20,285 nucleotides of DNA from Verrucomicrobiales bacterium (GTDB taxonomy: Bacteria; Verrucomicrobiota; Verrucomicrobiia; Limisphaerales; UBA9464): assembly GCA_003445095.1 (NCBI GenBank), contig DLVS01000471.1, positions 1 through 20,285 of the forward strand, read 5' to 3'. Below, in pieces: positions 3,265 through 20,216 of this stretch (positions within the stretch are counted from its first letter, which is position 1; each line of letters starts with the position of its first letter). A program made the translations under genes and the position numbers. The notes beneath the pieces are model-generated. The model was not told the DNA's origin. It did not search any database and saw only the letters and a list, made by a program, of their open reading frames with translations.

Positions 3265-3630
3265 TCAGTTAGGCGACCGAATAGCTCGTCGCACCCTACT
3301 CCTAGACATTGCCCCGGTGATTTGAGCACAAACCAAGCACACCAGGAAAGAGACGAACACAAGTTCCAATATCATAACGGCGTAGACTGAAGGCCCACCC
3401 ATTCCGCCATGTCCAGTCGAAGTAGTTAGAGGCACTCCAGGAAGTAGTCCCTGAACCCATGCCGAAACATTGTTGCAATGTTCATACCAACGCCGCAACC
3501 ACGGTCCCAAAAAGCCAATTGATTGTTGAAATGTATATGACGAATATCCACCAATAGCGGCGATTCCACCGATAATGCATATTGTAATGTGCAACATGAT
3601 GCATGGTGCTTTAAATAACCTGTGCTTCAT
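3265..3630 (-). CDS. Small two-helix membrane protein, candidate immunity protein for the RHS tip toxin
   Basis: I do not recognise a family. The 121-residue protein has a basic N-terminus (K2, R4, K7), a hydrophobic helix at about 11-29, a polar/aromatic loop at 30-81 with several Trp and Gly, a second helix at about 82-104, and a very basic tail (R110, R112, R114, R115, R118). By the positive-inside rule both ends are cytoplasmic and the loop is outside. The ATG lies 3 bases after the RHS stop codon, and a GGTGA 7 bases before it overlaps the last RHS codons, so translation is probably coupled. A small gene placed directly after the variable C-terminal tip of an RHS protein is the standard position of an immunity gene. 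Sampled 60-base rows in this gene are about 42% G+C. The immunity role is inferred from position and topology, not homology. Confidence 0.65.
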   Translation of the reverse strand: MKHRLFKAPCIMLHITICIIGGIAAIGGYSSYTFQQSIGFLGPWLRRWYEHCNNVSAWVQGLLPGVPLTTSTGHGGMGGPSVYAVMILELVFVSFLVCLVCAQITGAMSRSRVRRAIRSPN

Positions 3631-3633
3631 ATA

Positions 3634-6600
3634 TTATTCACCGGACCACCTGTCCCAGTAAGAAAGATCAAACCACATCTCGGACACTTTCGGTTCGATT
3701 TCGGCAGTTAGATGGTCCCACATTCCAGCCGTTGCCTTGTGCAATAAGCTTCCTGTACCAGGATCATTAATCTCGAACCTGATATGCTGATTCCAGGCAA
3801 GTGGAGGGAATGGTTTGTTATCAAAATTTCCCCACCGATCGTCCCAAGGCTGAAAATACTGATGCGACGGAGAAGTGTTGTCTTGAATAGTATGCAACGC
3901 ATTGCCGAACCTGACTAAAGCCTCTTCTTTGTCGCACTGGCGCCATAACTTCCAAGCGGCACGGATCTCTACTTGCACCCAGCGGATACTTTTCGCTCGC
4001 GCTGTCGCAACCGCCTCCTGCGTGTTAAGGTTCCGCATTGCATGGAGAAAAGAGAGCTTTCCGCTTTGAAATGCATCAATTCCGTCATGCCCTTGGCGGT
4101 CTTTAATGATTTCTCTAAACCTATCTTCCACAAAGCTCAAAGCTGAATCGATAGCACTTTGATGAATAAAGAAGCCCATCTGGCTAGCCCAAAGTCCAAG
4201 CGTGTCCGTTCTTCCGGACGGGTCGTTTGAGACGAATCCATATAATGCCGGAGAATCAAGTTCTTCCATCGAATCGCGATTGATCCACCTACCGAACGTA
4301 GGGCTGTAGTAGCGGTAACCGTAGTACAGCAGATCCGTTTCGGGGTCCTGGTATTTGGTGGAGAAGCGGATGGGGTTGGCCTTGGCCTGAGCGCCGGTGG
4401 CGCGGATCATCTCGCCGAAGGGGCCGTACTCGTAGGTGGCCGACGGGATTCCCGTGGAACCATCCACGAGTCCGGTGACATTGCCGTTGCCATCGTAGGC
4501 GACGAAATGGGCGGTGGTCCCGCCCGGCTTGACGGCAATGAGCCCGCCCGCGCCACCTGCACCTTCTGAAGTTCCACTTAGGTCGTTCCCCCAAATATAA
4601 CTACGCGTGACGGCGTTGGCTGAGTCGAGTTCCGCAAGCACATTCCAACCTTCCAAGAGGAACTTCGATTGAGAGGAAGGCGTGGTTGAATAGTCGTTGC
4701 TGCCCCAGGCGTACGTCTTCTTGCCGATCCGTCGGCTTCGATCGTCGTACTCGAAGGTGACCTTCTTTCGGGCGGCGGTAACAAGTGAAGCCGCCGCGAC
4801 GTTCTGGATGGCAAGCAACCGGTTTTCCGCATCCCACGTGTAGCTCCAGAGACCGTCGCTGAGCAGATTCCCATCGTCGTCGTACGTGAAGGTCTGCGTG
4901 GCTGGTGGCATCAAGACGTTGCCAGTCTGAGCGACCCCTCCAGGCACCGTGACGTTTACGGCCGTCCATTGCGGGCCCGTGCTGTTGGGAAGATTCAGCG
5001 CCTTCCAGAAGTATTCACCTTTGCGCGCATCGGGAGCAGTTGAGTTGATGGTTGGCGTCACGCTAGCCAGGGCAATACCGGTCACGTCCCAATAAGGCGG
5101 GACTGTCCGCGTGTCATATTGGTTCAAACCGTTTGGCTTAGGGGTGTACGTGACTTGGCGGAGATTGGCGCCGTTGTTGTCGCCGCCGGCGAGCGTGATC
5201 TTGCGGTTCCCAATGTCGTCAAATACGTACTCAAACTGCTGACCAGCCACCGGGGTGCCATCGCTCCAAAATCTCCGGCCGACGATTAACTGGCCCAGAT
5301 TGTCATATTGATAACGCCACCCACTGCCGTCGGGCATGTCGAGCGTGATTCGCTGCCCGGCATCATTGTAACCGTAGCGAAAGTTCATGGCGCTTTGTCC
5401 TGAACCGGCGGGCATGGACTTGACTTGATACAATCGGTTCAGAAAGTCAAAGGAACGTGTCGTGGTCATTCGCGTCGTCGTCAGGTGTTTGAAGGTTAGG
5501 GTTCCTGGCAACGCTGAGTTCGCCAGGTACCCGTAGGTTGCCGAGTAGGTTCCATCGCCAGCCGTCGCGAGGCGCCCGGCTGTGTCATAGCCGTAGGTCA
5601 CCGAAGCCAGAGTCTGCGTCCCATTTTTGGCCGAGATCACCTGGCGCCGAAGGTATCCGTCGTAGCTGGCGATGACACTTAAGCCGGCGAGGGTGGCACC
5701 TGTTCCCGACCAACTCTCACTCAGGAGATCGCCCGTCGTGTTGTAAGTTCGGGTCGCCGTCAGTGCGCCTCGAGTAACGGTCGTCGGATGTCCACACCGA
5801 TCGTACCCATAACTAACCGTCGGGGTGTTTTGCGGGTCGTAGGTGTAAGACAAAGCCACCAAGTCTCCGCTATCATTCTTGGACGGATTGTCTTCTGGAC
5901 CGGTCGCGCTCTCAAACCCGTAGGTCCACGTCGTGAGCAATCGCTGGTTGCTACCGTTCTTGCGCGCCCATTGGCGCGTCTTCATCCGTCCCCCTTTGGT
6001 ATACGTGAAGTCGGGTCCCTTGCCATCGGCATAGCGCTTGTTGTCGAGCCACCCCCGATACGGGTTGTAATTCCACGTCGTGGTTGCGCTGGTCGCCGCG
6101 TCAGCGAGTTGTCGCCAAGTCTTCAACGTCTTCATTCGGCCTTGCGCATCGTAGGTATATTCCAAGGGATACGTCCGACTACCCGACGTCTTTTTCAGTG
6201 AACCCGTGGGGAAATATTCATTCTTCACGACCGACTCGTCCGGCTGAATCAGTTGTTGGACCCGGCCCAACGAGTCATACACCGTCATCGCCGTTTGCGC
6301 GGCGAGGCCAGTTCCCGGTGGAGGAGTGGTGACACTGACGACCCGATCCGAGGTGTCATATCCGTAGGTCGTCGTGCCGTTCCGAGCATCGGTGACCTTC
6401 CATTGGCGCCCATGGGCATCATAGGTGTAGCTAATTTTCCCCACTTGCGAACCCGAGCTTGAGTATTGAGTCTGGGACAACAGTCGTCCGTGTTGGTACT
6501 GGGCCACAGAGAAGGACCCATCTGGCGCCGTGCTGGTCACGTTGCGGTAACCGTTCCCGGGGAAACTTACCTGTGTCTGCGCCGGATTCACCACGCCTGG

Positions 6601-9600
6601 CGTCACGGTCCACGTCCGCAAGCCATCCACTGAGCTCGAGGTTGTCGAAATGACGCTCGCGGTCGAGTTACCTGAGAGTTTGTACTCGGAGACCGTGGTT
6701 CGGCGCGTGGTCGTACCAAATTCGGCGACTGTTTCGTTGAGAGTCTTGGTAATGCGATCCGGGCCATTCCAATCAATGATTCCATCCCGATCGAGGTCGA
6801 TGACGGTAAAGTCCTCATTGTAGTTCTGGCGCAGGAACAAGGTCGTGACGCCATCGGGATCCACCTGCCTCACGACCCGACCCGCCGAGTCATAAAACGA
6901 TTCACTAGCGGGATTGTTGGCCAGGTCGGATGGGGAACTATCGGAATAAATCGTTTTGTACGGCCTTCCGAAAAAGTCCGACCAGGTCATAACCCACTCA
7001 TTGGTTCCCGTGGGCGTGCCAGCAGAGGTGAGGTTGATAGTAATTCGGTAGGGATGATAGTTGGGATTGTCGTGATCCCCTTCGTTAAAGACTCCGTAAT
7101 CGTAGCGGACGGGATTACTACCCGTGTCTGGCGAGGCTGCTGTCCCGCCCATCTCAGCCAGCTGCCCATCGCGAAAGTATCGCTCTTTGCGAGTCACTAC
7201 CTCAGCAGTTCCCACCGCTTCGGTAGTCGTCCGCAGCAGATAGCCATTGGACAGGTCCTCAACAAAAGAAGTAACGACACCGGCGGCGTTCGTTTCAGAA
7301 AGCGTCCGGCCCGCGTCGTCGTAGGCATAACCGCTGAGTGTAATCACACTCGCGTCTGAGCCCTGACGCTGGATATATTGAATGCGTCCCGCGGCATCGT
7401 AGTTGTTGATGGTCGTGACTCCGCCCATTGTGCTCGTCCGCAATCGGTTCAGTGAATCGTAGGTATAGCTCGTCACAGTTCCCTCCCGACTCGTCGTCGA
7501 ATCGAGCATACAACAACTATAGGATGACCATTCCGCCAATCCGCTCAGATTATCTAAGGTCCGCTGCGGCCGCCCTCGACTGTCGAAATTGTCGAAAGTG
7601 ATCGAGCTCGTAGTGAGTGTCGTATTGAGGCCAGTGATGCTGGCCGTACTTGAGCTGACCGTCTGTCCGGCGTCATTAACTACGGTCACGCTTCTGGTCC
7701 CTTTGATAATCGCCCCATTCGAATCCGCTAGCCCACTATCCACCGAAGTGGTCCTCAGCCCAGCGCCATCCGCATAGGTGAAAATCTGCATCAGACCATC
7801 AGGTGTTTTCACGGACTTTATCCGGCCCAAGGAAGGACCACTCGTGTAGAACTGAGTTTCGGTGACTAGGTTGGCCGGATCGTCGAGCCCCAATGGTTCA
7901 TACTGGTCAGCATCTTCGGCGTGCATCCGATATTCCCGAAGCCATTCGATGGCTCCGCTGATGGGCTCGGCATGCACGACGCGTTTGGTTTGGGATATAG
8001 TGACCTCCGATTGCGATTCTGTCTCAGTACGAGCCAAACGGGGGAGAACACCGCCATCATCATTCCAGGCATCGACCGTCGAATACTCGAAGACTCGTTT
8101 CTTCACCGGCGCGGATGTTGAATTACTCACGAAGTCGGAATGCGTGCTGTCCTTTAGGCCCGTGATTACTTCGCTCAGGAAGCCCATGGAATCATAATTC
8201 CGAACAGTCCAGCTCCCATAGGGGTCGATCTCGACTTTTCGCCGCCCCGTATTAGGGTCTGGCTCATACGTGGTTACCAACGCATTGGCCCCAGTTCCCA
8301 CTCGGTGTTCCACCAGCCAAATCCATTGATCACGTTCGGGGTAGCCGATCGCGTCATCGCCAAATAGCTGGTAGCGGAACTCTTCATGGTAAACCACCGC
8401 TAAGCTAATTGGATCGAGCGCCTGATAAACTTCAGTCAATTGGGTGAAGGCAGGGTCCCAAGAGGATGAGCGCCGCTCAACCGAAAGCCCCTCTGGCCGG
8501 GTCAGGGTCCAAGAACGATCGACCTCGGAATAGACGAACTCGCTCGTGCGCAGGCTACCGGCTTTGTCTTCGGTGATTCGCAGACGATTGAAGTTCCCTT
8601 GCGCGCCATCGGGAGCAGTGACGGTCCAGCTTGTCAGTTCCAGCATTCCATTCGTTGGATACAGTCCATTGGCGCCTTTGGCGGAGAGTGTCGGCCCGAA
8701 GAAGTGAATCTTGAACTGATATCCGGAGACCGTTTCCACGTGCACCAATCGCTGAGATGATTTGGCTTGCGCGATGGTCCCGTTGGAATTGACCACCAGC
8801 TCGGTTGAACTCGCCAACGACGCAGCGGTGAGCGAAGCGCTTTGGGCCAAACCTTCGTGCGGAGTAAGCGCGGCTAGGGTCAGCACCCCGGCTGGCGCAC
8901 CGAATTCCGTTTTTCCGAGATTGACGGTCAACAGAGGCCCACCCTCCAATGCGACCCGACCGTCACCCAAGTCGGCGTCACCGCCACAACATCCGCGGGC
9001 GCTTCCAGCCCGCGATACTCTCCCGGCCGAGCTCAAGGAGCTCCAGCCCTGGCATACCTTGAAGTCACCGGCAAATCTAACCCCGTTTTCAACTGGAGGC
9101 TCAACAATCACTTGGTAGGTCACCTCGCCCCCGGGTGCCGACGCAAGGGTCCAACTCTTTTGCTCGGTCCGAAACCCACCTTGGAAACTGAACGTATACT
9201 CAGTCCAACTCAGCGTGTACCGCTGCCCGGCGATGGTCGCGAAGGAAAAAGTCAGGAGAAGCCGACGTAAATAGAGGTACTCGTGAGTGGCGCTCCAGAG
9301 GCGCTTGGCCGAGCGCATGCCTACCCCCCATCCACTGGCGGCCATGTCGCTACGCACCTTTGCCTCGAGATCAGCGTCCGAATACAGATTGGAAATGGTT
9401 TCCTCGGTAGAGGCGGCTCCCCCGGGTGGAGGCGTCGTTTGATCCATCTTTCGGGTAGTGGGGGTGCACAGCACCTGACGATCACCGAAGCGCTGGATGG
9501 CCGAGATCAGGTAGTCTGTGTTCGCCGTCTGCTGCGGAGTCGGGAACCAACCCGTTTCGTGAGTCCAATCATCCTGAGTGACATACGAGCCACATCCGCT

Positions 9601-10197
9601 GCAACCGTCTGTGCGGCTACCTTGCCAGCGCCCTTGGAACCCCGACGTCGTTAGCTGCTCCGAATAAGTCATAAACGTACGGAGCGAGCTGCGTTTGTAG
9701 TATCCAATTCCGGCTGTGTGGTGCGTGTAGAGTCGCTGATCGTCGTCGCCGGTAGTCCCATTCATCGATCCACTAAATGTATGGCTCTTAATCGCCTCCG
9801 TCTGACGATCAATGGTGGTCGTTTCGGTCGCGTCGTAGGAGGAACTAAGGTGCAGCTCGCGGTATCCCTGAGACCAGGTCTTAGAAAAGCCAGCCTCACT
9901 CACCGACTCTCCAGGCCAATTGGGATTTTGTTCATCGAGTTGCGCGTTGCTGTGCGAAACAATCGTATAACTCAAATAGTGCTGAACGAACGGTGGACGG
10001 GCCGGACAAAACTCCGGCCAGCCGGGCTTTGCGTGCGAAGCGTGACTGAACTCGATCGTAACATTGGGAACCCAACATTCTCGACCCATCGGGTCGGGAC
10101 CGCAATCGGCCAACGAGACACCACAAAACACCATTGCCCCAAGCACGGCCAAAGCCGGCGAAGCCAAAGACTGTCGGTTGCTCGATCTGAGATTCAT
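3634..10197 (-). CDS. Exported RHS-repeat polymorphic toxin with zinc-phospholipase-C/S1-P1-like C-terminal tip
   Basis: The 2187-residue protein begins with a Sec-type signal peptide (hydrophobic about 14-28, likely cleavage after the Ala of SLA). Residues up to about 640 are beta-rich with no recognised domain. From about 650 to 1920 there are many RHS/YD repeats (YTYDSLNR, YTYDAQGR and similar) with a Cys-Cys motif near 895. The RHS-associated core spans about 1922-2002 and includes YYGYRYYSPTFGRW. It ends with R1974-D1975 and D1998-T-L-G-L2002, matching the aspartyl autoprotease signature of TcC/RHS proteins (usual form DPxGL; here Pro is Thr). The 185-residue tip has the full zinc-ligand order of phospholipase C / S1-P1 nuclease enzymes. 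There is no PAAR domain and no VgrG gene, so this is not an obvious type VI effector. Known RHS shells enclose a tip toxin; I infer the same here. It is the second gene of the 13410-3265 operon. The ATG at 10197 has no Shine-Dalgarno, with CTCCT directly before it. Confidence 0.9.
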   Translation of the reverse strand: MNLRSSNRQSLASPALAVLGAMVFCGVSLADCGPDPMGRECWVPNVTIEFSHASHAKPGWPEFCPARPPFVQHYLSYTIVSHSNAQLDEQNPNWPGESVSEAGFSKTWSQGYRELHLSSSYDATETTTIDRQTEAIKSHTFSGSMNGTTGDDDQRLYTHHTAGIGYYKRSSLRTFMTYSEQLTTSGFQGRWQGSRTDGCSGCGSYVTQDDWTHETGWFPTPQQTANTDYLISAIQRFGDRQVLCTPTTRKMDQTTPPPGGAASTEETISNLYSDADLEAKVRSDMAASGWGVGMRSAKRLWSATHEYLYLRRLLLTFSFATIAGQRYTLSWTEYTFSFQGGFRTEQKSWTLASAPGGEVTYQVIVEPPVENGVRFAGDFKVCQGWSSLSSAGRVSRAGSARGCCGGDADLGDGRVALEGGPLLTVNLGKTEFGAPAGVLTLAALTPHEGLAQSASLTAASLASSTELVVNSNGTIAQAKSSQRLVHVETVSGYQFKIHFFGPTLSAKGANGLYPTNGMLELTSWTVTAPDGAQGNFNRLRITEDKAGSLRTSEFVYSEVDRSWTLTRPEGLSVERRSSSWDPAFTQLTEVYQALDPISLAVVYHEEFRYQLFGDDAIGYPERDQWIWLVEHRVGTGANALVTTYEPDPNTGRRKVEIDPYGSWTVRNYDSMGFLSEVITGLKDSTHSDFVSNSTSAPVKKRVFEYSTVDAWNDDGGVLPRLARTETESQSEVTISQTKRVVHAEPISGAIEWLREYRMHAEDADQYEPLGLDDPANLVTETQFYTSGPSLGRIKSVKTPDGLMQIFTYADGAGLRTTSVDSGLADSNGAIIKGTRSVTVVNDAGQTVSSSTASITGLNTTLTTSSITFDNFDSRGRPQRTLDNLSGLAEWSSYSCCMLDSTTSREGTVTSYTYDSLNRLRTSTMGGVTTINNYDAAGRIQYIQRQGSDASVITLSGYAYDDAGRTLSETNAAGVVTSFVEDLSNGYLLRTTTEAVGTAEVVTRKERYFRDGQLAEMGGTAASPDTGSNPVRYDYGVFNEGDHDNPNYHPYRITINLTSAGTPTGTNEWVMTWSDFFGRPYKTIYSDSSPSDLANNPASESFYDSAGRVVRQVDPDGVTTLFLRQNYNEDFTVIDLDRDGIIDWNGPDRITKTLNETVAEFGTTTRRTTVSEYKLSGNSTASVISTTSSSVDGLRTWTVTPGVVNPAQTQVSFPGNGYRNVTSTAPDGSFSVAQYQHGRLLSQTQYSSSGSQVGKISYTYDAHGRQWKVTDARNGTTTYGYDTSDRVVSVTTPPPGTGLAAQTAMTVYDSLGRVQQLIQPDESVVKNEYFPTGSLKKTSGSRTYPLEYTYDAQGRMKTLKTWRQLADAATSATTTWNYNPYRGWLDNKRYADGKGPDFTYTKGGRMKTRQWARKNGSNQRLLTTWTYGFESATGPEDNPSKNDSGDLVALSYTYDPQNTPTVSYGYDRCGHPTTVTRGALTATRTYNTTGDLLSESWSGTGATLAGLSVIASYDGYLRRQVISAKNGTQTLASVTYGYDTAGRLATAGDGTYSATYGYLANSALPGTLTFKHLTTTRMTTTRSFDFLNRLYQVKSMPAGSGQSAMNFRYGYNDAGQRITLDMPDGSGWRYQYDNLGQLIVGRRFWSDGTPVAGQQFEYVFDDIGNRKITLAGGDNNGANLRQVTYTPKPNGLNQYDTRTVPPYWDVTGIALASVTPTINSTAPDARKGEYFWKALNLPNSTGPQWTAVNVTVPGGVAQTGNVLMPPATQTFTYDDDGNLLSDGLWSYTWDAENRLLAIQNVAAASLVTAARKKVTFEYDDRSRRIGKKTYAWGSNDYSTTPSSQSKFLLEGWNVLAELDSANAVTRSYIWGNDLSGTSEGAGGAGGLIAVKPGGTTAHFVAYDGNGNVTGLVDGSTGIPSATYEYGPFGEMIRATGAQAKANPIRFSTKYQDPETDLLYYGYRYYSPTFGRWINRDSMEELDSPALYGFVSNDPSGRTDTLGLWASQMGFFIHQSAIDSALSFVEDRFREIIKDRQGHDGIDAFQSGKLSFLHAMRNLNTQEAVATARAKSIRWVQVEIRAAWKLWRQCDKEEALVRFGNALHTIQDNTSPSHQYFQPWDDRWGNFDNKPFPPLAWNQHIRFEINDPGTGSLLHKATAGMWDHLTAEIEPKVSEMWFDLSYWDRWSGE
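3637..4191 (-). other. C-terminal toxin domain of the RHS protein (zinc phospholipase C / S1-P1 nuclease-like)
   Basis: The domain is residues 2003-2187. Visible candidate ligands are W2003, H2012, D2038 or D2041, H2052, H2102, D2106, H2112, H2138 and E2142. H-x3-D-x5-H (2102-2112, with Pro two before the last His) and H-x3-E (2138-2142) match the spacing of Clostridium alpha-toxin H126/D130/H136 and H148/E152. The 50-residue gap from H2052 to H2102 is close to 49 in Bacillus cereus phospholipase C. The gap from H2112 to H2138 is 26, nearer to P1 nuclease (23) than to the phospholipases (12-14). The domain is shorter than those enzymes (about 245-270 residues). Substrate, lipid or nucleic acid, cannot be decided from sequence. 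Sampled rows are 43-47% G+C against 70% in the core row starting at 4381. Confidence 0.72.
3638..3642 (-). promoter_or_regulatory. Ribosome binding site of the immunity-like gene, inside the RHS 3' end
   Basis: On the minus strand GGTGA lies 7 bases before the ATG at 3630 and within the last codons of the RHS gene. This supports the chosen start and suggests coupled translation of toxin and immunity protein. Confidence 0.45.
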
Positions 10198-10221: not shown

Positions 10222-13200
10222 CTATTTAAGTGCCGTGTACACGGTGAACGCGGTCGAACCGGTGAGCCCACCGGGTGAGTTGTACGTGCTCGGACTTGTC
10301 TCCCCCGAATCGGCGACATTGTTACCATTTCGGTCCTCCACATAGTTCGGCAGACCGTCACCATCCGTGTCGCTGGGCTGGCCTGAACCGTTCAGCCCGA
10401 CGTAATGAAAACCAATATCCACCCAAACCAGGCTGTCCGCGCCTTCCTTAGTATTGCTCGCCGTCTTGACCGTAAAATGGTAGAGACCTGCGGTTTCCCG
10501 GGTCTGACTCCCCGCATCGATCAAACTACTCAAGCTCGGATGGCCACCGGCGGCCGGATAGTACCGGTTCCCCCAGCTCCCATTGGCTTGGTAGTCAGTG
10601 CTCAGCCCCGTCTTGTCGTTGCTTCCAGAGAAAGTGGTTGTTGTACCAGTCGTGAACCCATTGTTCGACCGAATCACATTGATCGTGCCACTGCCGGTCA
10701 GGGTTTGAATCGTTCCATCGAAAAGATTGTCCTTGAGAGTCCACGCTGGGTTAATGCTCCCTGAGTCGTAGGTGACTGAAAAGGAGCCTCGCCAGAACAA
10801 GTTATTGTTGCCTGCTAAAGTCAGCGGAGTGTTCTGGGAGGTATAGCTTTTGTTAATGCTAAGAACCGACCTCTCGAACAGATTGTTTCGCAACGTGACC
10901 GTTGCCGAACGCGAATCCCCAGGCCACAAGCTGGTCAACCCGACGTTGCTTAGTTGACAGAACTCTAAAGTGACGGACTGAAATGGCTGCGTACCGCCCG
11001 TGTCTAATAGGCTTGTGCCAGACTTGCTCGGCGCTGTCAGTTCGGTGAATCTTACTGAAATATAGGGGCGGGTCGTATAATTGGCTCCGATCCGTGCTAT
11101 CGGCCCGCCGTTGCCTTCTGAGGTCGACTGTTCCTGGACGCTATTCCACCGGGTAAGGCGATTCGGGCGTTCTGCGCGACCCTCGCTAATGAGACTACTC
11201 GCATCTTGGAGGTCCACTCCATAGGCGCCGGCAACCGCCACCGCGACTCCGTTCGTCAATTGCACCATCGCAGTCGCGGTGACTGACCTGAAAACGTAGT
11301 CAATCGGTACGTAATGGAAGCCTTTGTCGACCTGATCGATGTCGCGCAGGACTCGCGGAGTAAGGGTCGTTCCTACGCTGAGACCACCGGTCATCAACTG
11401 TGGGGCCTCGGTCGTCAGGCTCTTCAGCTCAAGGGCAAGAGTGGTGTCGATGCTTGCGCTCCCGGCATTGCGGTAGGGACTTCCAGAAGGCAGGTAATGG
11501 CTTCCTCCGGACACGGCTTGGAAGACGCCGGTGCTACTGGCAATAATGTCGGGCGGAGTGCCGGAATAGCTTCCCGGAGTGGTGACTCCGACCAAAAGAC
11601 TGTTGAGGTAACTTACCGTCGCCGCGGAGCCAAAGTTGACGGTGCTCCCATCGTTAACGGTGAGGTGCTGGCAATTCACGGTCGCGGCCGTGCCCGCGAG
11701 CACCTTATCTACTCGATGAAAGAGGGCATTATGCAGGTAAACCGTATTCTTAGGTGCTAGGCCTTCCTGACAGTGGACAAATTGAGCGTGCCTCACCCAG
11801 TGGCTTGGCCCCCCAGCAAAAGTCAACCCTCGGCGGCAATGACTAAACCGAGGATGATTAAGCGTCGTGCTGCTGTTGTTATTTAGGATCAGCGCGGGAT
11901 TTGCGTAATAGGTGCCGCTCGGATCGCTAGTTGAGCCTACAATGACTTGACCGACGGTGTTGTCGTCCTTGCCGGTGAAGACGACCGGCCGGTACGCGGC
12001 GCCGCCAAAGCTAAGTGATCCTTGTATTTCGATTTTGGAAGTCGTCGCCGAGTCATATTTGATGACCGTGCCTCCCTCGAAGGTCGTCGAACCGCTCAGG
12101 TTGACCGTACCGCTGATATAATAAGTGTCATCGCTGGCGAAGGTGTAGTTATTCTGACTAGTAGTTAGGGTCAGATAATCCAGGACCAAGCCCGGTCGAG
12201 CGGCTTCGGCCAGGGCGACATCATCCGCACCTAGCGTCAATCGCCGAATTTGCGCGGTGGCCGCTCCTCGTCGGTCAGGTTTTCGGGGAAGCTCACGGAG
12301 CGCCGACATTCGGTCGGCTGACGGTTGGCCAATGCGGGCGCCACCCCCACTCGTCGGAAGCGTCTCGAGGGCACTTTGAACCGCGTCGAGCTCGACAGAT
12401 TCTACCAAGAACTTTCTTCCGTCGTCCACCCGAACCCAGCGCTTAACGACCAACGAGAGCGGATCGTCGTCGCGCCCCAGTCGAAACGTTTTGCCCGTGC
12501 CAACCCGGGCGCTTTGAAAATCCAAGACCTCGTCATCCCGCTCTTCCAGCGTCGATTGCGGGCCATTGGAGCGCGCATTTTCATGCCTAATCCTTACTGG
12601 TTCCGGCGACCCGGTAAACTCAGTCCATACCTCTAACTGCGTTGTCTCCGAGCTTAGTCCAAACCGTTCTGGCCTGGGAGGCTGCTCCCGCAGAATCACG
12701 TCCTGTTCAAAGCCCGCCTTGCTCACCGAATACCGCACGTCCGCCAAGATTCCGGTAAAGGCGTCCGGGAAGAGAATCTGGTGGTCAGCCACCTGAAAGC
12801 CGCTGCAATCCTGGACCTGACCCAGTAACACCGATTGGCCCGAGGCTGTGTCAACATAAGCCAGGCCATACACGTGACTGGTTAGCAGTTGATTGTCCGG
12901 CAGGCGCAGTTGTACCGCATCGGCAGAGTTTAGATTGGCTGCCACGGATACCTTGTGCTGACCCTTCCACGCGACCGCGGCTCCATGAACCAACTCGAAG
13001 ACTGGCTCACTGGGGACCAGCCGGCCTTCGGGGGTGAAATAGTTCAACCCGGTCTCGAGTTGGACATAGCTATTCGTTTCGAAACGCCGATCTGCCCCAA
13101 TTCCGATTTGACGCACGATCGAAACCGTTTGGTCATGGAGACCCCGTCGAGTAATGGCAACAAATTCAGTAGGCTCGTCGGCGAAAAGAGTTGGCGTCGA

Positions 13201-13410
13201 GAGAGCACCGATCCCAATGGCCAACAGAATCGCGCCACCGCTGGAGGTCCGTCGGTATTTCCGCGGTAGCAGGGCCGCCGTTGGTCGCGCGCCTCGATTT
13301 CTTCCCTCGACGTGCCATTCACTTGGGTTCGAGGCCTCTCGGGCTCCCAAAGGTTGAAAGTTAATGCGATGGTGATGTTGAGCTAGGAGGTTCAGCAGGT
13401 TCGCGTTCAT
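10222..13410 (-). CDS. Exported parallel beta-helix protein with C-terminal calcium-binding (thrombospondin-3-like) repeat, first gene of the RHS operon
   Basis: The protein has 1062 residues. A hydrophobic stretch at 58-77 ending LFA-D looks like a signal peptide, but it follows a 57-residue basic/polar extension. No ATG, GTG or TTG codon just before the hydrophobic part offers a shorter start, so I keep the ATG at 13410 with reservation. Residues about 80-400 form an unrecognised domain. About 405-970 have the Ser/Thr/Asn-rich short-strand pattern of a right-handed parallel beta-helix, with segments such as YYISGTVNLSG, GGTVIKYD and LTLAGNNNLFWRG. Residues 1014-1038 carry D-T-D-G-D-G-L-P-N-Y, a calcium-binding type-3 repeat. 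Such helices bind or cleave polysaccharides or act as surface adhesins; no catalytic residues can be assigned. The gene ends 24 bases before the RHS start, so it is probably co-transcribed with it. A role in display or delivery of the RHS protein is speculation. Confidence 0.8.
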   Translation of the reverse strand: MNANLLNLLAQHHHRINFQPLGAREASNPSEWHVEGRNRGARPTAALLPRKYRRTSSGGAILLAIGIGALSTPTLFADEPTEFVAITRRGLHDQTVSIVRQIGIGADRRFETNSYVQLETGLNYFTPEGRLVPSEPVFELVHGAAVAWKGQHKVSVAANLNSADAVQLRLPDNQLLTSHVYGLAYVDTASGQSVLLGQVQDCSGFQVADHQILFPDAFTGILADVRYSVSKAGFEQDVILREQPPRPERFGLSSETTQLEVWTEFTGSPEPVRIRHENARSNGPQSTLEERDDEVLDFQSARVGTGKTFRLGRDDDPLSLVVKRWVRVDDGRKFLVESVELDAVQSALETLPTSGGGARIGQPSADRMSALRELPRKPDRRGAATAQIRRLTLGADDVALAEAARPGLVLDYLTLTTSQNNYTFASDDTYYISGTVNLSGSTTFEGGTVIKYDSATTSKIEIQGSLSFGGAAYRPVVFTGKDDNTVGQVIVGSTSDPSGTYYANPALILNNNSSTTLNHPRFSHCRRGLTFAGGPSHWVRHAQFVHCQEGLAPKNTVYLHNALFHRVDKVLAGTAATVNCQHLTVNDGSTVNFGSAATVSYLNSLLVGVTTPGSYSGTPPDIIASSTGVFQAVSGGSHYLPSGSPYRNAGSASIDTTLALELKSLTTEAPQLMTGGLSVGTTLTPRVLRDIDQVDKGFHYVPIDYVFRSVTATAMVQLTNGVAVAVAGAYGVDLQDASSLISEGRAERPNRLTRWNSVQEQSTSEGNGGPIARIGANYTTRPYISVRFTELTAPSKSGTSLLDTGGTQPFQSVTLEFCQLSNVGLTSLWPGDSRSATVTLRNNLFERSVLSINKSYTSQNTPLTLAGNNNLFWRGSFSVTYDSGSINPAWTLKDNLFDGTIQTLTGSGTINVIRSNNGFTTGTTTTFSGSNDKTGLSTDYQANGSWGNRYYPAAGGHPSLSSLIDAGSQTRETAGLYHFTVKTASNTKEGADSLVWVDIGFHYVGLNGSGQPSDTDGDGLPNYVEDRNGNNVADSGETSPSTYNSPGGLTGSTAFTVYTALK

Positions 13411-15030: not shown

Positions 15031-15191
15031 GTTCATGGCCCCGATACGCGTCCGATCGATCCGGCGAATCGTCGTTCTCCGTGCCCTAACAGCGGGCAAA
15101 ATTCTCCCAATGAATTTGGCGGGCGAGCTAGCGTCGGAACTGCGTTTGCTTGCGGGATCGGCCCGTCAGCGTATTGATTTGTAAAACGACG

Positions 15192-16598
15192 ATGACTTCC
15201 ACCCGTCTCTCGCGCCGAACTTTACTCCAAGGAATGGGGGTCACCATGGCGTTGCCCCTCCTCGAAGCGATGCGTCCGCTCCAAGCGTTGGCCGGCACGA
15301 CGACCTCCGCGAGCCGAATCGCCGCGGCCGCCCGCGCGCCCGTGCGATTCGCCGCGCTGTACATGGCGAACGGGGCGTTGATGAGCGACTGGACACCAAG
15401 AGGCGAGGGGCGGGGCTTCGAACTGTCGCCCACGCTGTCACCGTTATCCGGGTTTAAAGAGGATTTGTTGGTGTTGAGCCACCTTTGGAACAGGGCCGCC
15501 GATACCGGTGACGGTCATTATGTCAAAACCGGGGCTTGGCTGACGGGTACCACGATCACCCGAACTACCGGCAGCAACCTCTGCGCGGGTAACATCTCCA
15601 TGGACCAAGCCATCGCCCAAAGGATTGGAAACCTGACTCCGTTGCCGTCGCTTGAATTGGGCATCGAACCCGTTTCCACCGGCGTGGACGTCAACGTCGG
15701 TTTCACCCGGCTCTACGGTGCGCATATCGCGTACAGCACGCCGACGACGCCGTTGGCCAAGGAGATCAACCCGAAACTCGCCTTCGACCGCCTCTTTCGG
15801 TCCCGCGCCGGTACCAAAAGCGGCGGGTTTGGAGACGATCAAAGTGTCTTGGATCTGGTGGCCGACGACGCGCGACGTTTGCAACGCCAGTTGGGCCATG
15901 CGGATCGGCAAAAACTCAACGAGTACTTTGACAGCGTCCGGGCGGTGGAGCGCCGCATTGAATTCGACCGCCAACGCAAATCCTCCGAGAATCTCGCGGA
16001 TCCATTGGTTCGAGCCGAGATCGCGCGACTCGGCGGGGCGGTAGACCTATATCAAGATCCCGCGCGAGTCAGCGAACGCGGCGATAATCACACAGAACAG
16101 GTGCGCCTAATGTTAGATTTGATGGCGCTCGCGTTTTGGACTGATTCGACCCGCGTGGCCACGTTCATGTTTGGAAATTCTGTTAGCGGTCGCAACTTCT
16201 CTTTCCTCGAAGCGGGGTTGGGTTCGCATCATGAGAACAGCCATCACGAACACAAGGACGACAAAAAGGCCCGCTACCGACGAATCAATGAATGGCATGT
16301 CGCCCAATACACGTACTTCCTCGACAAGTTGCGCAGCTATCAAGAGGGCGACCGCTCAGTGCTCGACAACTCCATGGTATTATTCGGCGCGGGCATGAGC
16401 GACGGCAACGCGCACAGCCCGCACAATCTCCCGCTGGTTTTGGCCGGGCGCGGTGGGGGGACCTTAAACCCGGGCCGGCACCTCATCTTCGAGAAGGATC
16501 ACCCGATGGCCAATTTGCACGTCGCCTTGATGAACCGCATGGGAGCGCCCCAAGAGCACTGGGCCGATAGCACGGGTGAGCTAGCCGGGCTGAGCTAG
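15192..16598 (+). CDS. DUF1552 family exported protein
   Basis: The protein has 468 residues from the ATG at 15192, chosen because the Arg-Arg leader characteristic of the family starts there (L-S-R8-R9-T-L-L-Q-G). A hydrophobic stretch and probable cleavage near A34 follow, which suggests twin-arginine export. The family signature is clear: R-F-A-A-L-Y-M-A-N-G near the mature start, L-S-H-L-W-N, a His-rich H346-H-E-N-S-H351-H block, and the closing G-M402-S-D-G-N-A-H408-S-P-H411-N block followed by P-L-V-L-A-G-R-G. DUF1552 proteins are abundant in Planctomycetes and Verrucomicrobia. They usually sit next to DUF1592/DUF1588/DUF1585 cytochrome-like proteins, but none is adjacent here. Biochemical function is unknown; the Asp/His pattern resembles DUF1501/alkaline-phosphatase-like proteins, but I would not assign a reaction. 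Length fits the family. Confidence 0.93.
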   Translation: MTSTRLSRRTLLQGMGVTMALPLLEAMRPLQALAGTTTSASRIAAAARAPVRFAALYMANGALMSDWTPRGEGRGFELSPTLSPLSGFKEDLLVLSHLWNRAADTGDGHYVKTGAWLTGTTITRTTGSNLCAGNISMDQAIAQRIGNLTPLPSLELGIEPVSTGVDVNVGFTRLYGAHIAYSTPTTPLAKEINPKLAFDRLFRSRAGTKSGGFGDDQSVLDLVADDARRLQRQLGHADRQKLNEYFDSVRAVERRIEFDRQRKSSENLADPLVRAEIARLGGAVDLYQDPARVSERGDNHTEQVRLMLDLMALAFWTDSTRVATFMFGNSVSGRNFSFLEAGLGSHHENSHHEHKDDKKARYRRINEWHVAQYTYFLDKLRSYQEGDRSVLDNSMVLFGAGMSDGNAHSPHNLPLVLAGRGGGTLNPGRHLIFEKDHPMANLHVALMNRMGAPQEHWADSTGELAGLS

Positions 16599-17543: not shown

Positions 17544-20216
17544 ATGAACTTCCCCCTCTCTGTTCTCTCCCGCGGAGCACGTGCCGCGGCTCTCGGCGTT
17601 TCCGCCGTCTCCCTGGCTCTGACCAGCCAGGCCGGTGGCCCCATTGGCCTCTGCGATACTGATACGCCTCTAATCTGGCCTGCGGGCGGCGTAGGCATTC
17701 CCTTTAATCCCGATCAGGGTAATTTGGGTCCGATTAGCCACGACGATGCGGTCGCCCTCGTTCAGTCGGCGTTCGATGTGTGGGGCGCCATCCCCAGCTC
17801 GACGGTTACCTACGTCAACGCTGGGGAATTACCGGTGGACGTCGATTTCAGCAATTTCGTCGACTACCTATTTCCAAGCGCGCCGGACGGCTACAGCGCC
17901 ATTGTTTTCGACGACACCGGTGAGATTTTTGACGCGTTATACGGTCCCGGTTCCGGGATCCTTGGATTTGCCGGACCCGAATGGGTAGACGTCAGCACCT
18001 GCACCATTCTCGAAGGAGTTAGCTTTCTCAATGGTCCATCGTTCACTGATGCTACCTATGCCCAGGACGTGATGGTCCATGAGTTTGGCCACTACTCGGG
18101 GCTTGGCCACACCGTCGTCAACGGGCAGATTTATATCGGGGATACGACCGGCCCCACGCCCACGAATGACCCTTTCGGACCAGCGCCGAATCCGTTCGTG
18201 GAAGATGTGGTTGAGACAATGTACCCGTTTTATTTCGGACCTGGCATCGGCACATCGTCGCCGGAGAAGGATGATATCGCGGCGATCTCGACGCTTTATC
18301 CAGAACCGGATTTCGCAACGACCACCGGCACCATTACCGGCGTCATTCGGGGCCCCCTGGGCGGAGTGCCGCTCACCGGAATCAATGTCATCGCCCGCAA
18401 TATTGCCGATCCTTTCGCCGACGCCGTGTCCGCCATTTCCGGCAACTACAGTGCATTCGGCGGCGATACTGAGACGGGGCGTTTCACGCTGACCGGACTG
18501 ACTCCCGGAGCAAGCTACCTCATCTTCATCGACCAAATCCTCGCCGGCGGGTTTAGCACTCCGGTGATCACCTTGCCGGGACCTGAGGAGTATTATAACG
18601 GGGCCGATGAATCAAACGGTTTGGTAACGCCCGATGTTGTGTCGGAGTACACGGCCGTGAGTGCGGCCGCGGGTTCGACCACGGAAAATATCGATATCAT
18701 CATCAACACTTTTGCGCCGGGAACCGCGTTACCCGTGGGTGATGATGGTTGGGTTCAGTTGTTCCTGCCCTTCCCCTTCCGGATTCTGGGCGAGACCTAC
18801 ACCACAGTGTTTGTTAATGCCAACGGCAATCTTTCCTTCGGCGCACCAGCCCCATCATTTGTTGAAAATGTTGCCGATTTCCTGAATGGGCCTCCCAGAA
18901 TTGCGGGGTTATGGCACGATCTGAATGCTTCAGCCGGCGGTATGGTCTCATATTCGCAGACGCCCAGCACACTCACCGTCCGGTGGAAAGACGTGCCGGA
19001 GTTCCCTGATATCGGCGCCAATACCTTCAGCATCACGCTGAAAAAATCGGGCAATGTGGTCGAGGTTAAATATGGCAAGGTGACGGCGATCGCGGGCCTG
19101 GCTGGATTGTCCGGTGGCTATGCTCAAACCTCAGGTTCTGAGACACCCATCGATCTCAGCAAGGCGCTCAAGAGCCGGCTTAGCCTGTGGCCTCAGCCAG
19201 CCATCTATGAGCTATTCACGTCCAATCGTAAGTTCGATCTGGCCGGAAAGACTCTCCTCTACCAGCATGACGTGGATTACAACGACGCCTGGGCCGGAAA
19301 TAATAACTCCTTCAGCTCGGCCAAGGCCATTAAAGCGCCGTTCGTCTCCGACACAGTGCGGTACTACACAGAAATCTCCCCAATCGGCGGCGACGTCGAT
19401 TACTTCAAATTCGAAGTGGGGGTTGGTGATCTGATTCGAGCCGAACTTACTCGGGGCAATTTCGACTCGGTCCTCGGAATATTTGATCCCGCCGGCAACT
19501 TGGTCGCCGTCGACGACGACAGCGGCGTGGAGTTGCTTTCGAAGGTGAGCCACCAGGCAACCGAAGCGGGAACCTATCGAGTCGCTGTCTCGGCTTTCTC
19601 CGACTTCTCATTTACCGGTGGCGGTGGCAGCGGAGGTCGCTACGTCCTCCAACTGGACATCGCCAATTGCGGTACGCCGAGCCCAGCCAATTGGGTCGTG
19701 AACTCGGGTTTCGAAACGGGTGATTTCCTCTGCTGGAATGTCATTGAAACCAGCACACCGTTCATCCCGCTGACAGTAACCGATGGATCGACGCCAACTT
19801 GGTTCTCTCCGCCCTTGGCGCCGGAAGGCAACTATGAGGTAGTCGGTGGTTTTGATGGCGATGGTCCGATGCAGATTGCGTTGTTCCAAGATGTCACCAT
19901 TCCGGCCGGCGAACCATTCTTAACCTTGGAATGGCAGGAACGGTTGCAGTGGGAGCTTTTTAACTTCCCCACTGTATCGCGCCTGTACGCGGTCTTGATC
20001 GTCGATCCGACGACCAACGATCTCCTGCGGATCGTCAAACTCGTCGACACCGGAGTTGACCCGGCCTATATGGATTCAGGCTGGCTGAGCGAGAGTTATG
20101 ATGTATCCGAATTCATCGGTACGACGATTCGGCTCATGTACTACCAACAGATAGACGAGCCGTTCACCGGACCGGGTCAGTTCGAGCTCGACGACGTGCG
20201 CCTGCGCAGCCAGTAG
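17544..20216 (+). CDS. Exported M10/matrixin-like zinc metalloprotease with multidomain C-terminus
   Basis: The protein has 890 residues. Residues 1-30 are a signal peptide (cleavage near SQA-G). The catalytic domain (about 35-255) has a matrixin-like A-F-D-V-W-G-A-I-P segment. It also has the metzincin zinc motif H179-E180-F-G-H183-Y-S-G-L-G-H189 and a Met-turn at M226 (E-T-M-Y-P-F-Y). Next come a carboxypeptidase-regulatory-like beta domain (about 259-345) and a domain of about 403-530 (F-V-N-A-N-G-N-L-S-F, then R-I-A-G-L-W-H-D-L) that recalls nidogen-type domains. A PPC-like domain follows (about 577-705; D-V-D-Y-F-K-F, then D-S-V-L-G-I-F-D). The C-terminal beta module (about 712-890) begins N-S-G-F-E-T-G-D-F and ends F-E-L-D-D-V-R-L, like carbohydrate-binding jelly rolls. 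It probably cleaves extracellular or surface proteins. Cys37 and a Cys in S-T-C-T may form a disulfide. There is no cysteine-switch motif and no sorting tail. Confidence 0.9.
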   Translation: MNFPLSVLSRGARAAALGVSAVSLALTSQAGGPIGLCDTDTPLIWPAGGVGIPFNPDQGNLGPISHDDAVALVQSAFDVWGAIPSSTVTYVNAGELPVDVDFSNFVDYLFPSAPDGYSAIVFDDTGEIFDALYGPGSGILGFAGPEWVDVSTCTILEGVSFLNGPSFTDATYAQDVMVHEFGHYSGLGHTVVNGQIYIGDTTGPTPTNDPFGPAPNPFVEDVVETMYPFYFGPGIGTSSPEKDDIAAISTLYPEPDFATTTGTITGVIRGPLGGVPLTGINVIARNIADPFADAVSAISGNYSAFGGDTETGRFTLTGLTPGASYLIFIDQILAGGFSTPVITLPGPEEYYNGADESNGLVTPDVVSEYTAVSAAAGSTTENIDIIINTFAPGTALPVGDDGWVQLFLPFPFRILGETYTTVFVNANGNLSFGAPAPSFVENVADFLNGPPRIAGLWHDLNASAGGMVSYSQTPSTLTVRWKDVPEFPDIGANTFSITLKKSGNVVEVKYGKVTAIAGLAGLSGGYAQTSGSETPIDLSKALKSRLSLWPQPAIYELFTSNRKFDLAGKTLLYQHDVDYNDAWAGNNNSFSSAKAIKAPFVSDTVRYYTEISPIGGDVDYFKFEVGVGDLIRAELTRGNFDSVLGIFDPAGNLVAVDDDSGVELLSKVSHQATEAGTYRVAVSAFSDFSFTGGGGSGGRYVLQLDIANCGTPSPANWVVNSGFETGDFLCWNVIETSTPFIPLTVTDGSTPTWFSPPLAPEGNYEVVGGFDGDGPMQIALFQDVTIPAGEPFLTLEWQERLQWELFNFPTVSRLYAVLIVDPTTNDLLRIVKLVDTGVDPAYMDSGWLSESYDVSEFIGTTIRLMYYQQIDEPFTGPGQFELDDVRLRSQ

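Follow-up and report, generated by a model that had tools for sequence, protein, structure and literature searches.

When an RHS protein cuts off its own C-terminal toxin, does the cut only release the toxin, or could it also finish the active site? The question is raised by a gene on contig DLVS01000471.1 of a Verrucomicrobiales bacterium (assembly GCA_003445095.1), in a stretch of 20,285 nucleotides, here called the window, that encodes the RHS protein P0001. An earlier note on this DNA had proposed that self-cleavage would leave a Trp at the N-terminus of the toxin tip and that this Trp would complete a metal site of the phospholipase C (PLC) type, making the cut a zymogen activation. The usual account of RHS self-cleavage is toxin release; in P0001 the cut site appears to be built into the active site of the tip, so that the cut would also activate the toxin and would protect the producer cell. 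We favor, at a probability of about 0.62, a three-metal PLC-like C-terminal toxin that is activated by its own RHS cleavage, has a lipid target and is accompanied by an adjacent immunity protein. This reading is built on the sequence, its conservation and spacing, the predicted fold and the gene neighborhood, from which we infer cleavage, metal binding, zymogen behavior, substrate and immunity. It is a prediction made from sequence only, and it is open to direct experimental check. The parts of the protein that bear on the cut are the following.

3634..10197, minus strand: RHS protein P0001, 2187 residues, with a signal-like N-terminus, RHS repeats and a C-terminal tip (open reading frame translation, PF05593, TIGR03696)
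4192..4428, minus strand: RHS-associated core, residues 1924-2002, up to the putative cut (NCBIfam TIGR03696, positions 1-76 of 76)
4273..4275, minus strand: D1975, first Asp of the putative autoprotease pair, 23 residues before D1998, as in Tse5
4204..4206, minus strand: D1998, second Asp (DTLGL); a cut at D+4 is expected, by analogy with Tse5 and RhsA
4189..4194, minus strand: putative scissile bond L2002-W2003, W2003 being the would-be mature N-terminus and metal ligand (Trp in 44/44 tips)

The make-up of P0001 is that of an RHS polymorphic toxin, with RHS/YD repeats and a core ahead of a variable tip, and various different tips are found behind comparable RHS cores. The repeats (PF05593) match in 10 stretches with an E-value of 2.3e-30, above the cut-off of the Pfam scan, and hydropathy finds a single hydrophobic segment, residues 9-27, within the first 60 residues. 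The core profile matches with an E-value of 5.6e-19, again above cut-off, and its end falls on L2002 with W2003 directly after it, just as the earlier note had described. The residue numbers given there (R1974, D1975, D1998, T1999, L2000, G2001, L2002 and W2003) are exact by translation, and the span to which it assigned the Trp, 4186-4197, contains W2003 (4191-4189) but as a whole covers G2001-A2004. The Asp pair had been placed close to the spacing of the TcC catalytic pair, and this is borne out by the 23 residues between D1975 and D1998 and the putative cut at D+4. Both values are identical to those of Tse5, in which D1141 and D1164 are 23 apart and the cut falls between L1168 and I1169 (PMC10684867; this and the other papers below are cited from excerpts). 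In RhsA, D1324 and D1346 are 22 apart and the end lies at W1350, which is also D+4 (PMC8765631).

The central prediction, that homologues of this tip carry Trp after the cut, could have failed when the sequences were compared, and it survived. Trp stands directly after the putative cut in all 44 tips of what we call the W-type set (the window, 32 database proteins and 11 genome loci), which form 38 groups at 90% identity and 10 at 50% by single linkage. Among other RHS tips used as controls it does so in 4 of 91, and the remaining tips share 18 other residues. The presence of Trp after the putative cut is beyond chance, with a Fisher p of 3e-31, or 5e-11 when each 50% group is counted once, kinship among the controls being ignored in both values. 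Because of this difference between W-type and other tips, the Trp seems to be demanded by the tip and not by the protease or the core. A whole-tip profile search of 396 genomes from the phylum of Acidobacteria bacterium AB60 gave matches in eight, six of them with Trp and the two weakest being sister tips (described below) with Leu. A Trp-blind profile, from which the first 10 residues were removed (14 in the window), matched nine genomes, five of them with a readable RHS junction; Trp is found in four of these (L113, L114, L115 and L116), and L121 is a sister tip.

These counts depend on how the tips were selected. The 91 controls, nearly all from acidobacterial genomes, are what is left of 101 cores after removing 3 W-type, 5 sister and 2 PLC-like tips (L078 and L083). 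The 101 cores consist of 41 core loci and 60 that were hand-picked among the matches listed, a non-random choice with near-copies kept, and come mostly from genomes of the phylum of genome G003, with few from G001 and G002. Two junctions (L067 and L073) are possibly misplaced, and Trp is found in 4/89 without both; with the seven set-aside PLC-like tips included it is found in 5/98. Left out of the counts were L117, whose contig begins inside the tip, L118 and L119, which have no RHS core in frame upstream, and L120, with no RHS junction seen upstream. Duplicates were dropped as well: L007, L016 and L113 of L003; L008, L122 and L162 of L001; L009 of L002; L022 and L123 of L049; L023, L121 and L124 of L086; L126 of L025; L127 of L030; and L125 of L038.

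What the Trp could be needed for is suggested by the tip itself, in which the following candidates were located.

3637..4191, minus strand: toxin tip, residues 2003-2187, 185 residues, a PLC-like all-alpha domain by predicted fold
4162..4164, minus strand: H2012 (tip H10), candidate metal ligand, invariant column in a 12-tip alignment
4075..4077, minus strand: D2041 (tip D39), candidate metal ligand, likewise invariant among the 12 aligned tips
4042..4044, minus strand: H2052 (tip H50), candidate metal ligand, likewise invariant among the 12 aligned tips
3892..3894, minus strand: H2102 (tip H100), candidate metal ligand of HxxxD, invariant column
3880..3882, minus strand: D2106 (tip D104), candidate metal ligand, invariant column
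3862..3864, minus strand: H2112 (tip H110), candidate metal ligand (SPxH), invariant column
3784..3786, minus strand: H2138 (tip H136), candidate metal ligand of HxxxE, invariant column
3772..3774, minus strand: E2142 (tip E140), candidate metal ligand of HxxxE, nearly invariant (31/33)

The predicted fold is the all-alpha fold of the Zn-dependent PLC enzymes, and when the tip is compared with the list of PLC metal ligands all nine positions are present in order, the N-terminal residue first; the assignment of each residue to a particular metal is provisional. We propose that the RHS aspartyl autoprotease (D1975/D1998) would cut between L2002 and W2003, and that the new alpha-amino group and the main-chain carbonyl of W2003 would complete a metal site otherwise made of H2012, D2041, H2052, H2102, D2106, H2112, H2138 and E2142, as the N-terminal W1 of secreted PLC does. 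As long as the peptide bond is intact it would block the W2003 ligand, so that the toxin would leave its shell and become active in a single event. The tip would then be a three-metal PLC-like hydrolase acting probably on a membrane lipid. In the Listeria PC-PLC a metal is coordinated by main-chain atoms of W1, which its side chain anchors; the W1 substitutions tried, except Phe, lower activity, and both the pro-form and an enzyme with a single residue added ahead of W1 are inactive (PMC10576769). In Tse5 and RhsA toxicity requires the core cut (PMC10684867, PMC8765631). Joining these two sets of findings suggests a double role for the RHS cut, which would release the tip and at the same time supply its last metal ligand, and by this analogy cleavage likely activates the toxin.

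The W-type tips make up a family of RHS tips whose predicted fold is PLC-like and to which none of the Pfam scans made here gives a name, and defining this family is a second outcome of the work. With the window tip alone as query, a search turned up a single further RHS protein, P0004 (E 1.5e-4, 33% identity across 59% of the tip), whose own tip recruited 31 more; a contig scan of genomes added three named loci (an Armatimonadetes metagenome-assembled genome, an Acidobacterium metagenome-assembled genome and Acidobacteria bacterium AB60), and the search with the Trp-blind profile, made in 347 genomes of the order of the last, gave the nine matches described above. The window tip matches no Pfam family up to an E-value of 1, including PF00882, PF02265 and the Tox-HET-C family PF07217, and no NCBIfam entry, and a Pfam scan of twelve tips gave just weak unrelated families (best E 0.054). 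The tip profile has no match in PDB, a search with the tip alone gave no standalone homologue at E <= 1 among 45 candidates, and SmNuc1 is not among the rows listed for the window tip's own model, which excludes nothing. Two matches were discarded: designed beta-trefoils, which alone came up in a PDB sequence search with the tip (best E 0.014) and were put down to chance, and JetA1 from PADLOC (E 0.003, 14 bits). L118 and L119 are PLC-like tip stretches, possibly broken copies. L083 (W and His at residue 6, after DIVGL) and L078 (F and His at residue 6, after DPTGK) have HxxxD-like motifs and look like further members; L083 also matches VWA7_N, without reaching the cut-off of that family (E 1.2e-4), and, weakly, Het-C (E 0.046).

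The gene that follows on the same strand has a bearing on the target.

3265..3630, minus strand: P0003, 121 residues, two predicted membrane segments, candidate immunity protein, starting 3 bases after the RHS stop codon

Membrane segments were called by simple hydropathy, and P0003 has no Pfam match. At 7 of the 11 W-type genome loci (L001, L002, L003, L017, L018, L021 and L114) the downstream open reading frame has 84-113 residues and 2-3 membrane segments and starts within 53 bases; the one downstream of L115 has a single segment, L019 and L020 are followed by a different protein, and L116 has none near. By the same rule a small membrane protein with at least 2 helices is found behind 8/12 W-type tips, the window included, versus 4/28 controls. 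The partners of L001, L002, L017, L021, L114 and L115 are interrelated, with 0/500 block shuffles scoring as high. Homology to the other partners is unsupported for P0003 (52/500 shuffles as high), L003 (30/500) and L018 (37/500). The small membrane protein beside the tip, P0003 in the window, is likely an immunity protein, and since it is a membrane protein a lipid target is favored. The sister tips L030, L038 and L049 are followed by proteins of another kind, 192-209 residues long and alike by eye, and no partner protein was found downstream of the sister tip L025; L086, with too short a flank, was left out of this comparison.

The distance from the cut to the first His is a further regularity. 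It is residue 6 in 42/44 W-type tips, 10 in the window and 12 in L114. Among 98 other RHS tips the first His is at residue 6 in six (L025, L030, L049, L078, L083 and L086), all of which have HxxxD-like motifs on inspection. With seven PLC-like tips set aside the count is 0/91, which is no independent control because those tips were removed after viewing the tips with His at 5-7. In 13/13 secreted S1-P1 homologues from the same phylum (L128-L140; L141, whose match begins later, was left out), a signal-like segment leads directly into a Trp, and the His is again residue 6. In 7/17 PF00882 loci such a segment is followed by Y-S-x-x-T-H, which would also put His at 6 if signal peptidase cuts before the Tyr. 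One spacing may therefore serve several processing proteases.

The same spacing is seen in five sister tips, in which residue 1 is S (L025) or L (L030, L038, L049 and L086). L038 has His at 5 and 6 and the other four have it at 6. All five have the ligand motifs of the W-type family, with D and not E as the last ligand. Profiles connect the two groups: the sister profile A5 matches the W-type tip of L001 (E 1.1e-5), and the W-type profile A2 matches L022 (E 1.7e-5) and L023 (E 9.1e-4). In the phylum of G001 the sole match of A5 (251 genomes) and of profile A4 (241 genomes) is the known W-type tip of G001, and across the phylum of G003 (396 genomes) the matches of A5 are limited to its five source sister tips. 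Since residue 1 of the sister tips is Leu or Ser, the distance from cut to His may be a wider invariant than the Trp, and since W1 of PLC binds metal through its main chain, a free N-terminus that lacks Trp could still provide the ligand. We can tentatively picture, at somewhat less than even odds, a superfamily in which RHS tips share a PLC/S1-P1 fold, residue 1 is Trp, Leu, Ser or perhaps Phe and His is usually residue 6. In such a superfamily the RHS autoprotease would remove the propeptide, the toxin in its shell would be an obligate zymogen, and the last metal ligand would be the main chain of the free N-terminus, with any side chain.

Looking at the points that weigh against activation of a phospholipase by the cut can help to place it among its rivals. 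Sequence profiles by themselves connect the tip with neither PLC nor S1-P1, and hhalign comparisons of the tips with secreted S1-P1 and PF00882 relatives were not significant and agreed only at the level of motifs, S1-P1 against PF00882 reaching 59% in the same run. The same fold and the same activation by cleavage might also serve an S1/P1-type nuclease or another phosphodiesterase that is no phospholipase. This is unlikely in our view. S1-P1 nucleases share with the tip family a Trp followed by His at residue 6 after the processing site (13/13 versus 42/44), but the structural score of the tip is lower for S1-P1 than for PLC, and the last metal ligand is D in S1-P1 and E in the tip. It also seems improbable that P0001, with its signal peptide, is not autocleaved at all and that the tip is silent or freed by another protease, and we give this little weight. 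The prolines of DPxG are replaced in P0001 (D-S at 1975 and D-T at 1998), and no PAAR, prePAAR or other domain of the type VI secretion system was found in P0001 and eight further open reading frames scanned in the window. The second-motif proline is also absent from most W-type relatives (DRNG and similar). On the other side, P0001 retains the Asp pair, its spacing and the D+4 geometry, and matches the core profile in full.

A more direct challenge is that the Trp is kept for packing, or as an inherited junction of core and tip, while the cut just releases the tip and the metal site is independent of the free N-terminus. The residue after the Trp (P2') is P in 37 of the 44 tips (L in 2, S in 2, then A, V and W), much of the core near the cut is conserved among the relatives too, the sister tips manage without Trp, and the W1 side chain of the Listeria enzyme packs and hydrogen-bonds (PMC10576769). 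We nevertheless regard this explanation as rather doubtful. The residue before the cut (P1) is L in 34 tips, Q in 3, K in 3, M in 2, F in 1 and H in 1, and the Trp is kept in L018, L019, L020, L114, L115 and L116 despite a differing core and a K, Q, M or H at this position; it is lacking in 87/91 other tips behind RHS cores, and the one-residue extension that inactivates the Listeria enzyme (PMC10576769) also argues for a free N-terminus. This variation means that the Leu of (D)PxGL is frequent but not invariant, counter to the strict wording of the earlier note. The check that it set, whether homologues invariably have Trp, is passed by the tip's own family, with the Trp-blind profile too, but not by the sister tips with their Leu and Ser. 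As a whole the activation reading keeps its predicted fold, its ligand set and the Trp after the cut, and is qualified by a distant sister group without Trp.

The other genes of the window were also scanned. Upstream of the RHS gene and on the same strand, 10222-13410 (minus) encodes a protein of 1062 residues with a weak TSP3-like repeat at its end, possibly an operon partner. On the plus strand are a protein with CotH kinase and lamin-tail domains (2-2443), a DUF1552/HXXSHH protein (15150-16598) and a matrixin-type protease with a PPC domain (17544-20216), gene content that may point to a host of the verrucomicrobial or planctomycete type.

The tip of P0001 can be compared with several known systems. 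With the Zn-dependent PLC enzymes (B. cereus PC-PLC, Listeria PC-PLC and the N-domain of clostridial alpha-toxin) it shares the predicted all-alpha fold, the ligand order, the N-terminal Trp and the HxxxD...H and HxxxE motifs. It differs in having no match to them at the sequence level and in being carried by an RHS protein, whose self-cleavage would produce the N-terminus that in PLC comes from removal of a signal peptide or propeptide. Unlike in S1-P1 nuclease, no signal peptide lies directly ahead of the Trp, and the first His of the window tip is residue 10. For the polymorphic toxin domain Tox-HET-C a relationship to Zn-PLC and S1-P1 has been predicted by Zhang et al. (2012, PMC3482391), whose account, in the excerpts, names neither an N-terminal Trp nor a ligand-creating cleavage. 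The window tip, unlike Tox-HET-C, has no Het-C match, and L083 has the weak one given above. In the open-access literature, as far as excerpts go, we found no description of an RHS toxin with an N-terminal ligand made by the cut. P0001 is like Tse5 and RhsA in its RHS repeats, core profile, Asp pair and cut geometry and unlike them in that a PAAR domain was not found. In those toxins, according to the same excerpts, the cut is needed for release and toxicity, and in P0001 it would additionally make a ligand of the active site.
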